The notes under the pieces: generated by a model
Databases searched by the model: none
What the model was told of the DNA's origin: nothing
What the model saw: only the letters and a program-made list of their open reading frames with translations
In this document: in pieces, positions 35,042 through 63,749 of the stretch
Layout of the letters: the number at the start of each line of letters is the position of its first letter
How positions within the stretch are numbered: position 1 is the first letter of the stretch
DNA from: Apostichopus japonicus
Lineage: Eukaryota; Echinodermata; Holothuroidea; Aspidochirotida; Stichopodidae
NCBI RefSeq assembly: GCF_037975245.1
Contig: NC_092575.1
Coordinates: 3,466,001 to 3,530,000 of the forward strand
Direction of reading: 5' to 3'
Length of the DNA stretch: 64,000 bases
Program-made: the position numbers and the translations under genes

Positions 35042-35988
35042 ATGTCAGCCAAGACGCAGGAAGATATTGACCCAAACAAGCATAAGAAATCAGCTTGGGC
35101 TGTCGCTCGTGCTATCACCAAGTTTCAAAATGGACATAAAAAAAATTACCAATTGCATCGTGATCGCCGAGGTAGTCAATGGGTGTCTGGCAACCCCGAT
35201 TCTTTCATCGCAAAGTACACCACACAACGCCGACGTTCGTCAGACACCGTCAAATACGACGAGATAGATATGACCACACTGAATGACCACTACGACAAAG
35301 ATGGCCAAAATGTGACCGGATTAACAAGGTTCGAATTGGTCTGCGAACGATTGGTCGTGAATCCAGACGGTGCTTTCATCTTCTGGTGGTTGGTACCTGT
35401 GATCATCGCCATTACTTACAACGCTTGGTTTTCGATCGCTAGGTCTGCGTGGCCAGACCTAGACGAAGCTTACCGGCGTCTCTGGTTGGCGGCAGACTTA
35501 GTCTGTGACCTCGTGTATGTAGCAGACATCTTAGTGCAAGTTCGAACCGCTTACATGAAACATGGTCTCTTGGTACATAACGGTAGACTAATTGCCAAGC
35601 ACTATATTAACAGTAGAGAATTCGTCATGGATTTGCTGTCGACTATACCCATTGATTTTTGTTACGCTATCATAAAGAGACCGTATTTGCCTTATTTACG
35701 ATTAACGCGACTTATCAAATTTTATCGAGCTCGTCAATTCGCATTCAAAGTAGAGGCTGCATCATCTCGTCCCAATGTTTGGCGGATCTTGCACTTCCTC
35801 CACTTTCTGTTTTTAATCAACCATATCGTGGCAGCGATTTACTTCAGTTTTTCTACCGCCGAGATGGTGGATCACCCGTCCGATATGGCAACCAACGACA
35901 GCTTTCAGCAATATCTAGAGGTATTTTATTGGTCTACCATTACACTGACGACCATTGGGGATGTCGATTGGCCTGAAACAACACCACA
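35042..35988 (+). CDS. CNG gene 1, exon 1 (N-terminus to pore)
   Basis: Encodes residues 1-315 plus two bases. The start Met is chosen because the N-terminal pattern W..AR(A)(I/V)(T/S)K.QNG then DSFIA(K/R)YTTQR is shared with gene 2. Donor ca|gtaagt. Confidence 0.93.
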
Positions 35989-61300: not shown

Positions 61301-63749
61301 TAATTTAGACAAAAAGTCGATCAAATTTCTATGAGTATAAAATGTTAATATGAACAACAAATTTTTCTCTCTCGGTTTTGTTTATTTTTTGCTGATTTTA
61401 TTCGAAAGAGGTAAATCGGTACGGCAAAATGAAGATGAATGTTTCGAAATGCTACCGACGAAATTAAGAACCGAGCTCGCTATATATGTCAACTTAGAGA
61501 CGCTTAAGAAGGTAAGGTTTACTATCTCGTTTATGTATACCCTTCAAAATATGTATTACAACAATAAAATGATTATAAATGGGAAGTTAAGTATTGAAAT
61601 AATAGAGAAAAAAGCACAGACCACCTACTGCGATTAAGGTCATAAGTCTCATGGCATTGATGCAAATCAATGCAGATCTTGAAAGCTAATGGAACAAAGA
61701 TAACAAAAGACTAGTCATCCGACGTTACACATTGCAAGCAACATTCCCGTTTCATCACTCATCTCGAATTGCTGTCCTCGGATTCTCGAAATCCAATGGA
61801 AAGTCCAGTATGCGTCAAACAACACAATACAAAACGAACTAAACCAAACGTAACGTAATGTAACGTAGCGAAACGTAACGTAACGAAACTTAGCGTATCG
61901 AAACGAAACGAAACGTACAGTAACGTAATGAAACGAAACGTTCCGTAGCGTAACGTAACGAAACGTAACGTAACGAAACGTAGTGTAACGTAACGTAAAT
62001 TAACGTAACGCTATGAAATGAAACGTAACGTAACGAAACGTAGTGTAACGTAACGTAAAGAAACGTAACGTAACGAAATGAAACGTAACTTAACGAATCA
62101 AAACAACATAGTAAACATTCCAAATAAGTCCATGTAAGGATATTGTATTGACTGATGGTGTTTAATATGTAGAATGTTAAAAGTTTTACATTGATATATA
62201 AATTTATCTCCCATCTCTTAATTTCATGAAGCCTTACACACATGACAATAATAATAATAATAATAATATTTTCCATTTTCCATAAATGCGCCTATGCAGG
62301 TTTCATTCTTTCAAGAATGTGAGCCCGAGTTCCTCCATGATCTCGTGCTACGTATGCAGCTTGTTATAACCACACCGGGAGAGCTCGTCTGTAGGAAAGG
62401 AGAGATTGCGAGAGAGATGTTCATCATATCAGATGGCGTACTAGAAGTATTAAAGTAAGCATAAGATAATAAACATGAGATTTATGAAAGCCGACACCCC
62501 CCCCCCCCCCAAGAATGTTTGCTATATACAAACCATATGCAACTAATTGGAAGGGTATTTTCTTTATCGTAAAGCATCCCAGTTGTATCTTCGGAACGGA
62601 TTTCATTATTTATACCGTTACTCTGGTCGAGGGTATAGAGTTGTTGGCGTTAGAAGCAATAGGACGTAGTATTTGGGAGGTTGTGCGTTTGATACCTGGT
62701 CGGCCAAACGTAATAATAATAATCAGCAGTTATTTTTATGACGCTAATTGACCACAAATGTAGGAGGAACCTGCAAGGGCTTATGGATTACAATTTACAC
62801 GTCGGTTGGCTTCCAATTGAACATTTGAACTCAAATTTGGAATCTTTTCAATTTAGAAAGTCATGTCAGATGGGAAATCCGTAGATTGTTCTTGGATGAA
62901 AAATCTACCTTACTATGACCCGGCCGGGGATCGAACCCGGAACCTCCCGATTGCTAAGCCTCAAGTAAGATAAGGTTGCCATCCAGGAGGTATCCACGTT
63001 ATTCCCATCTGAAATGGTTTACCAAACTTGTTAAAAACGATCCAAAATAAGTTAACATTGTAAATTGGATTGCCACCCGACATTCATGTGTAAGTTTTAA
63101 ACCATTCGGCTTCTCTCGCATAAACATATACCTGCTTAATTTGCATCGTAAAATAACTGACTTCCTGTTTAAAATATTATCCTTACTAACATATCGTTCA
63201 AGTAAAATTTTTTTTATATCAACATGCACGAATTTGCATTCTCTTGACCATTACTACGCCAGGCGCGTAGCGAGGAATTTGCCAAGGGAGGGGCGAACCT
63301 GTAGGTAAAATATCAGAGCCGTAGATTCGGCATTGAAAACTATCTAAGCGTAGCGCCACCATAAGTTGGCGCTACGCGTACACGAAAATTTTGGCTGAAA
63401 ATGCCTCCCAGATCGCTGGAAATGGCACTTCCCAGGCCTTGTAACTTGCATCTAAGCTTGAAATTACTAGCGATATCATAAAAACATACAAAAAACAAAT
63501 GCTCTAAGGAGGGGGGGGGGCGGTCGCCCCTTCGCCCCCCCCCCTTGGCTACGCGCCTGTACTACGCATCATAGGAACGCGATTAATAAGATATTAAATG
63601 TATTCGAGACATCCCTTCTCTCTCTCCACCTCTCTCTCTCTTATGTAAATGTATCTACCAAGTGATGACGACACAGTTATCCGAACTTTACAAACTGGAG
63701 ATTTCTTTGGAGAGACGGGATTGCTTGTTACCGAAACTGGATCAAATAG
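54382..63749 (+). CDS. Cyclic nucleotide-gated cation channel, alpha-type (gene 2), 3' end beyond window
   Basis: Paralogue of gene 1, same strand, about 7.2 kb downstream. Seven coding exons join to about 500 residues: N-terminus with an acidic run (EGEEDDDDDE, about 77-86), S1-S5 (about 112-273), turret with a possible glycosylation site (NNT), pore filter TAIGD (about 308-312), S6 in exon 2, C-linker in exons 3-5, and the first two thirds of the nucleotide-binding domain in exons 6-7 ending at FGETGLL ... GSN. Exon lengths 59, 62, 89, 103, 155, 87 and all phases equal those of gene 1. The remaining C-helix, linker and zipper exons should lie past 64000. Not a pseudogene by what is visible: no stops or frameshifts, and all junctions are GT/AG. 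The filter differs from gene 1 (Ala for Thr). Confidence 0.9.
55460..55517. repeat. (TA)n in intron 1 of CNG gene 2
   Basis: About 58 bp of TA, 115 bp after exon 1. Gene 1 also has a TA tract just after exon 1. Confidence 0.95.
55710..56708. mobile_element. hAT-like element, 999 bp
   Basis: Left end cagtggcgtagccagg and right end gtagctacgccactg, flanked by a perfect 8-bp duplication aacgacac (55702-55709, 56709-56716). Contains the family core (ctatctaagcggagcgccac at 55797) and, at 56215, a left-end fragment of the cagtggcggagctag family. No transposase. In intron 1 of CNG gene 2. Confidence 0.85.
56717..57819. other. Rest of intron 1 of CNG gene 2
   Basis: No second gene or clear repeat seen; frames at 57417-58000 overlap on both strands without motifs. 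Confidence 0.4.
57820..57878 (+). CDS. CNG gene 2, exon 2 (S6)
   Basis: 59 bp after ttttccag. Reads YLIQILGFFFGIFVFATIVG. Donor gtatgt. Confidence 0.92.
58346..58407 (+). CDS. CNG gene 2, exon 3 (post-S6)
   Basis: 62 bp. Reads QVGAVVNQRNKRRMEFERLV. Acceptor caaaag, donor gtg|gtaatt. Confidence 0.9.
58485..58532. repeat. Short (TA)n tract
   Basis: TA with one TGTA interruption, in intron 3 of CNG gene 2. Confidence 0.9.
58565..59450. repeat. GATATC minisatellite, 21-bp unit
   Basis: About 40 units of tcaaattctaattcagatat followed by c. The core is highly regular (58780-59375) and the edges diverged. Every unit carries the palindrome AGATATC(T). The open frame with heptad NSNSDIS across 58744-59376 exists because the unit is 7 codons; it has no splice or start support. 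In intron 3 of CNG gene 2. Confidence 0.95.
59483..59905 (+). mobile_element. Decayed SINE, family C type
   Basis: Retains aaggattgctggttcgccaa (degraded B box), accccaggtgtataaattgg, ggtaacttgtcaatac, gtgacaagttac and gtaaagtcgtgt in the same order as 14029-14390, with many differences and an added 40 bp. Confidence 0.65.
60050..60138 (+). CDS. CNG gene 2, exon 4 (C-linker)
   Basis: 89 bp. Reads [20 protein letters not shown] then LGWYEYTW. Acceptor caaaag, donor ag|gtaaac. Confidence 0.91.
60385..60556 (+). mobile_element. Possible Penelope-like 3' repeat
   Basis: Contains cctctgaagaagatcctgct and aggattgaaacgtcaggcc, the hairpin-plus-GAAACGTC pattern common in the terminal repeats of Penelope-like elements. 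It is followed by ggctctttagtggataaaca. No coding part is present. Confidence 0.45.
61409..61511 (+). CDS. CNG gene 2, exon 5 (C-linker)
   Basis: 103 bp. Reads [20 protein letters not shown] then TELAIYVNLETLKK. Acceptor cgaaag; another AG two bases on would break the frame. Confidence 0.91.
61847..62097. repeat. AACGT/AAACG pentanucleotide-like array
   Basis: About 250 bp of aacgtaacgaaacgtaacgt-type units in intron 5 of CNG gene 2; unusually CpG-rich for the region. Confidence 0.9.
62300..62454 (+). CDS. CNG gene 2, exon 6 (nucleotide-binding domain)
   Basis: 155 bp. Reads [20 protein letters not shown] and the [16 protein letters not shown] strands. Unusually similar to gene 1 at DNA level (62318-62358 identical). 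Confidence 0.93.
62620..62706 (+). mobile_element. SINE family B head fragment
   Basis: Reads ctctggtcgagggta ... tttgggaggttgtgcgtttgatacctgg, aligning with the head of the copy at 16057. Truncated at aataataat. Confidence 0.5.
62710..62985 (-). mobile_element. SINE family B, copy 3
   Basis: Reverse orientation. AAT tail at 62710-62722, body with the complement of atccaagaacaatctacgg, and intact B box (complement of ggggatcgaacccgg at 62926-62940). Confidence 0.75.
63025..63165 (+). mobile_element. SINE family B 3' fragment
   Basis: Carries gattgccacccgacattcat, gtgtaagtttt and catcgtaaaataactgac, the 3' body of family B. Confidence 0.6.
63260..63559. mobile_element. hAT-like MITE, 300 bp
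   Basis: Ends caggcgcgtagcgagg and cttggctacgcgcctg. Perfect 8-bp duplication tactacgc (63252-63259, 63560-63567). Carries the family core (ctatctaagcgtagcgccac) and agatcgctggaaatggcact. About 100 bp upstream of exon 7 of CNG gene 2. Confidence 0.9.
63663..63749 (+). CDS. CNG gene 2, exon 7 (phosphate-binding cassette)
   Basis: 87 bp. Reads DDDTVIRTLQTGDFFGETGL ... TGSN. Donor ag|gtaagc. Last exon within the window. Confidence 0.91.

Follow-up and report, generated by a model that had tools for sequence, protein, structure and literature searches.

The stretch of DNA analyzed here (the window) comprises 64,000 nucleotides of the Apostichopus japonicus genome (assembly GCF_037975245.1, contig NC_092575.1, referred to here as C15, positions 3,466,001 to 3,530,000) and carries two putative cyclic nucleotide-gated (CNG) channel subunit genes, A and B, in the same orientation, with 7.2 kb between the stop codon of A and the ATG of B. 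A first-pass annotation had described a tandem, head-to-tail CNG pair about 7 kb apart, and this layout was borne out. Gene A comprises 12 exons at 35042-47169 (plus strand, as are all exons given below), or 713 codons and a TAG stop; exon lengths were 947, 59, 62, 89, 103, 155, 87, 97, 149, 199, 108, and 87 nucleotides, and GT-AG borders were found in 11/11 introns. Exon 1 (35042-35988) holds the N terminus, segments S1 to S5, the pore helix, and the selectivity filter T-I-G-D, exon 2 (36961-37019) holds S6, and exon 3 (37950-38011) holds the start of the C-linker, which continues through exons 4 (39168-39256) and 5 (40774-40876). The first part of the cyclic nucleotide-binding domain (CNBD) lies in exon 6 (41574-41728), and the domain runs through exon 7 (42697-42783) into exon 8 (42956-43052), which carries the motif RRTA. 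The end of the C-helix and a linker lie in exon 9 (44205-44353); exon 10 (45866-46064) holds linker with an IARDxMxSIExIVxEKL stretch that is present in a further gene, U (see below), too; exon 11 (46447-46554) appeared coiled-coil-like by eye and has a homologue in B and, weakly, in U; and exon 12 (47083-47169) includes the TAG stop. Pfam domains Ion_trans (7.5e-20) and cNMP_binding (5.4e-15) were found above the curated cutoffs, and CNG chains of the PDB matched exon 1 with E values down to 4.6e-36, which is beyond chance. Gene A encodes a single channel repeat, which is followed by a stop, and has no GYG filter; the succession of Ion_trans and cNMP-binding domains and a non-GYG filter of the CNG kind are those of the CNG cation channel family.

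Gene B starts with an ATG at 54382 and could be read through exons 1 to 7 to 63749, after which it is cut by the window edge. Its exons lie at 54382-55343 (exon 1, filter A-I-G-D), 57820-57878 (exon 2), 58346-58407 (exon 3), 60050-60138 (exon 4), 61409-61511 (exon 5), 62300-62454 (exon 6), and 63663-63749 (exon 7, the gene running on past the window); they measure 962, 59, 62, 89, 103, 155, and 87 nucleotides and contain no stop, and 6/6 introns have GT-AG borders. Exons 1 to 7 by themselves gave Ion_trans (3.3e-19) and cNMP_binding (1.8e-9) above the curated cutoffs. The absence of stops and broken junctions reported in the first-pass annotation was thus seen in both genes, whereas its description of two complete-looking frames holds for A only, B being incomplete in the window. 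A look past position 64000 for exons 8 to 12 of B had also been proposed: by tblastn, a homologue of exon 11 of A was found at C15:3535636-3535728, 5.6 kb beyond the window edge, but exons 8 to 10 were not found downstream of the window, where part of the flank reads N. We considered whether one copy, most likely B, might be a decaying or silent gene, as the odd alanine in its filter and the failure to find exons 8 to 10 in the readable flank could indicate. However, the open state of all seven readable exons, the intact borders of all six introns, the presence of the exon 11 homologue downstream, and the low nonsynonymous (pN, 0.025 to 0.18) relative to synonymous (pS, 0.54 to 1.06) difference between A and B over exons 2 to 7 make decay very unlikely. 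Within intron 3 of gene B, 20 copies of a 42-bp unit, itself made of two near-alike halves, were observed at 58599-59450, with several frames open; between genes A and B, at 50528-50952, 4.3 copies of a 99-bp unit were observed (98% match).

The window's own assembly (671.6 Mb, 35 contigs) was searched for related genes. Exon 1 of A as a query gave seven matches, namely, A, B, two additional genes designated U and D, a gene on contig C14 (in two pieces), and a piece on C16. With a query from S6 to the CNBD of A, 22 matches were obtained. Exon pieces from the four genes A, B, U, and D accounted for 17 of these; the others were the C14 gene, single pieces on C13 and C3, and two pieces on C18. 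Gene U (C15:3387995) starts 113 kb upstream of the start of A on the same strand, and gene D lies on the minus strand at C15:19.53 Mb, 16 Mb from A and B; U and D were modeled for exons 1 to 8. U, A, and B are clustered on the same strand of a single contig. The cluster is called loose because U and A are separated by at least one other gene-like frame, a 494-codon open frame at 25086-26570 (minus strand) that matched fucosyltransferases (Glyco_transf_10, 2.2e-51; Glyco_tran_10_N, 5.8e-11). The first-pass annotation had asked for further copies past position 64000; beyond U, A, and B none was found by tblastn with 11 exon proteins of A in C15:3376001-3570000 (E < 0.1; the parts reading N are unsearchable). 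Two weak matches in this search were taken as chance, one with an E value of 0.03 and an internal stop and one, located between A and B, that covered 17 residues with an E value of 0.08. Exons 9 to 12 of gene D gave no convincing match in the 40 kb searched.

The gene on C14 has the filter TIGE, a Pfam CLZ domain (4.1e-19), and 62.8 to 66.1% identity to CNGA1, CNGA2, and CNGA3 of the PDB, and it was the single CLZ match of the genome in a six-frame search without splicing. These features mark the C14 gene as the classical CNGA of this animal, located on another contig than A and B, and its exon plan differs from theirs in that a single open frame runs from the end of S2 up to and including the CLZ. 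The gene on C3 read as CNGB by eye (filter TIGN, GEVGKEMYIIKNGMVQVLGG). At C16:11801946-11911132, CNBD and S1 to S4 pieces were spread over 109 kb and by eye had the look of a CNGK multirepeat channel. CNGK (tetraKCNG), which is K+ selective and occurs in the sperm of sea urchin and Ciona (PMC8835908), shares the superfamily with gene A and differs from it in that A has one repeat followed by a stop and no GYG filter.

Exons 2 to 7 of A and B were equal in length (59, 62, 89, 103, 155, and 87 nucleotides), with cumulative phases of 2, 1, 0, 2, 0, 2, and 2 from exon 1; the coordinates and phases given for them in the first-pass annotation were correct. This identical architecture is no peculiarity of the pair, however, since all four paralogues share it: in A, U, and D, exons 2 to 8 measure 59, 62, 89, 103, 155, 87, and 97 bases, and B matches them in exons 2 to 7. 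Judged by these lengths, the exon plan belongs to the four-gene family as a whole and is older than the split between A and B. Shared exon lengths, being common to 4/4 paralogues, are weak evidence for a duplication between A and B in particular and were rejected as such. Introns 1 to 6 measured 972, 930, 1,156, 1,517, 697, and 968 nucleotides in A and 2,476, 467, 1,642, 1,270, 788, and 1,208 nucleotides in B, and the likeness between the two loci outside exons consisted of one TA-repeat match (blastn, E up to 1e-3).

The aligned filters read T-I-G-D in A, U, and D and A-I-G-D in B, so that an aspartate was found in the filters of all four paralogues versus a glutamate in the C14 gene and in CNGA1, CNGA2, and CNGA3 of the PDB; the filters of CNGB read TIGG (PDB) and TIGN (the C3 gene). 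Glu-to-Asp mutants at this filter position are expected to retain a cation-conducting pore in which divalent block is changed. No published Asp mutant of the CNG filter glutamate was found in literature searches judged by title. The phenylalanine and valine at the positions that we take to be the S6 gate were kept in the alignment. The binding-site motif was RRTA in A, KRTA in U, and RRAV in D, and an aspartate in the C-helix of A, at what is presumably the cGMP-favoring position, aligned with an aspartate in the CNGA1 and CNGA3 chains and with a glutamate in CNGA2. The simplest reading of these residues is that proteins of the gene A type would be cyclic nucleotide-gated, nonselective cation channels. 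In human CNGA1, the filter is T362-I363-G364-E365, with ion sites at the glutamate side chains and at Thr 362 (PMC12375067); in the numbering of PMC5758780, CNGA1 mutants near the filter, such as T360A, showed some change in selectivity, and E363A showed voltage-dependent inactivation.

The subfamily of A and B was assessed in a tree of 10 rows (A, B, U, D, the C14 gene, CNGA1, CNGA2, and CNGA3 of the PDB, and CNGB1 and CNGB3); TAX-4, CNGA4, CNGC, and CNGD were not among the rows, and the animal's own CNGB was too fragmentary to include. A, B, U, and D formed one clade (support, 98/99), the C14 gene grouped with CNGA1 to CNGA3 (99/99), and A and B were sisters (100/100). The phylogenetic comparison with CNGA and CNGB that the first-pass annotation had proposed thus gave no sign of the outcome named there as contradicting it, a placement of A and B in different old CNG subfamilies. 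A and B lay with CNGA, separated from CNGB by a branch with 100/100 support; they share some C-linker residues with CNGB (GQ after S6; WYxYxW) and also differ from it in lacking a TIGG-like filter. In approximately unbiased (AU) tests, grouping of A and B with only the C14 gene was rejected (p-AU = 5.7e-48), as was grouping of A with U (p-AU = 9.9e-7). Protein identity was 62.8% between A and B, 51.7% between A and U, and 40.1% between A and the own CNGA, compared to 66.1% between the own CNGA and CNGA3. No CLZ was found in gene A (Pfam, E up to 1), the one paralogue whose spliced C terminus was scanned, whereas the C14 gene scored 4.1e-19 as given above.

The first-pass annotation had called A and B alpha type. 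That they are duplicated classical CNGA genes is very improbable, and we give it hardly any credence: the best PDB matches of A were CNGA2, CNGA1, and CNGA3, A and B share S1 to S6, the C-linker, the CNBD, an acidic filter residue, and the presumed S6 gate residues of the CNGA type with classical CNGA, and their grouping with all CNGA rows was rejected only at a p-AU of 0.023, but the animal has a classical CNGA elsewhere that is 63 to 66% identical to CNGA1 to CNGA3 whereas A and B are 36 to 40% identical to these and to the own CNGA, gene A has neither CLZ nor TIGE, and both the tree and the AU tests speak against it. The term therefore holds only in the sense of CNGA-like. According to Lagman et al. 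(2022, PMC9803222), CNGA has four sister subfamilies, CLZ is present in most CNGA and only in classical CNGA, CNGF was lost and CNGC and CNGD were still present in the deuterostome ancestor, and cnidarians were the only group in which CNGE was found. Because CNGF and CNGE drop out, CNGC or CNGD is left as the likely home of A, B, U, and D, the two not being told apart; a CNGA-like protein without CLZ, as shown for A only, has the character described for both. A TIGD or AIGD filter, a cluster of this kind, and exon conversion are not described in the accessible part of that paper, with which our genes were compared by description only. Literature searches brought nothing usable on CNGD beyond it, found no account of echinoderm CNG tandem genes of any use besides it, and for echinoderm opsins together with CNG gave only a pharmacology guide.

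Synonymous sites were saturated between A and B in six of the seven shared exons (1 to 5 and 7; pS, 0.75 to 1.06). This saturation and the 100/100 sister grouping support the proposal of the first-pass annotation that the tandem duplication is old and that both copies were retained, and A and B remained sisters at 100/100 when exon 6 was masked. Its statement that the proteins have clearly diverged applies to the six saturated exons, whereas exon 6 looks homogenized. In exon 6, 131/155 nucleotides were identical between A and B, compared to 54.7 to 76.4% in the other six shared exons, and pS (0.54) was accompanied by the lowest protein change among the shared exons (pN, 0.025). Among codons for the same amino acid, 29/46 were identical in exon 6 and 88/224 elsewhere (P = 0.0026), an excess that was absent in the A-U, A-D, B-U, B-D, and U-D pairs (P = 0.25 to 0.76). 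The longest identical run in exon 6 was 41 nucleotides, which was reached in 0/20,000 codon-column shuffles, a control that ignores the protein conservation of exon 6, and in 9/100,000 simulations in which amino acids were kept and synonymous codons were drawn at the family's own rate (P = 9e-5; identical-codon count, P = 7e-4; both, P = 3e-5). Exon 6, one of seven shared exons, was chosen after its high match had been seen, and these P values therefore need a factor of about 7 (about 6e-4), which tells against the conversion proposed below.

A blastn match of 139 bp at 89.9% extended from the splice acceptor to inside exon 6, and the introns flanking exon 6 showed no likeness between A and B (blastn, E up to 1e-3). 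Mismatches were crowded at both ends of the exon, with 8/116 in the middle and 16/39 outside. The best reading is that about 116 bp within the CNBD underwent gene conversion, for which the putative tract spans 41592-41707 in A (plus strand; 108/116 identical to B) and 62318-62433 in B (plus strand). Selection on the nucleotide sequence itself, for instance, on splicing signals, or chance could also produce a match confined to the exon, and both the scarcity of protein changes in exon 6 and the unlikeness of the neighboring introns would fit this. Since the other five gene pairs showed no excess of identical codons, such a constraint would have to act in A and B only, and the simulation allowed for the amino acids and still gave a P value of 9e-5 for the run; we regard this explanation as unlikely. 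No paper on gene conversion in CNG channel duplicates was found in a literature search judged by title. The putative conversion cautions against dating tandem copies from a single exon.

Taken jointly, these results make it quite probable that A and B are functional CNG channel subunit genes of a CNGA-like subfamily other than CNGA (CNGC or CNGD), with four members in the genome, and that conversion of about 116 bp in the CNBD followed an old duplication. Several points weigh against this reading. Both gene models are known from the genome sequence alone, and gene B was read only through exon 7 plus one further piece. The weak rejection of A and B grouped with all CNGA rows was matched by an equally weak one for U (p-AU = 0.023), U is nearer to CNGA (41 to 46% identity) than A and B are (36 to 40%), and upon masking of exon 6 support for the four-gene clade dropped from 98/99 to 91/97. 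The assignment to CNGC or CNGD was reached by exclusion, with a tree lacking CNGC, CNGD, and TAX-4 sequences.

In the proposed mechanism, binding of a cyclic nucleotide to the CNBD would open the S6 gate through the C-linker, and cations would pass a filter whose acidic ring is formed by aspartate rather than glutamate. As there is no CLZ, assembly of the subunits would rest on other contacts, perhaps via the segment encoded by exons 10 and 11, which is partly conserved in U and B and is a candidate assembly segment; partners might be each other or the animal's CNGA. Conversion after the old duplication would have made part of the CNBDs of A and B alike again, while the pore and N terminus would have stayed different (TIGD versus AIGD). 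Because part of the CNBD is alike and the filter and N terminus are unlike, the two proteins may share ligand recognition and differ in permeation. The separate sensory or sperm roles suggested in the first-pass annotation are conjectural.

Joint splicing of A and B, giving a read-through polypeptide that carries two channel repeats, half-way to the four-repeat CNGK, was also considered: exon 11 of A ends in phase 0, and an AG at 54377-54378, before the ATG of B, would open exon 1 of B in phase 0 (GAC ATG GAA). We hold such a product to be extremely improbable; if it were made, its like CNBD exon and unlike pores (TIGD and AIGD) would join A and B in a permanent dimer whose halves match in ligand affinity and whose filter is asymmetric. 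Judging by PMC9803222, the newer CNG subfamilies await functional study. Four CNG genes with an aspartate filter ring, including a pair that shares a CNBD segment and differs in the pore, would be a handy test of the role of filter residues in Ca2+ block and selectivity, and the same genes would test whether subunits without CLZ assemble alone.

Minor features were recorded elsewhere in the window and the genome. On contig C29, five COX1-like pieces were found at 14745-31219, besides a long COX1 on C35; they may represent mitochondrial DNA copied into the nucleus or a misassembled contig. Over 232 codons of the COX1 on C35, AAA encodes Asn at 8 positions, AGA encodes Ser at 3, and TGA encodes Trp at 6, in keeping with genetic code 9; this makes an echinoderm the probable host, flatworms being another group that uses this code. 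Four tRNA-Cys(aca)-like stretches were detected in the window by ARAGORN, at 6340-6414 and 45595-45669 on the plus strand and at 31022-31095 and 31424-31498 on the minus strand, one of them falling in intron 9 of gene A. The two plus-strand stretches have, by eye, like flanks ending in TA repeats, which suggests a tRNA-derived short interspersed element.

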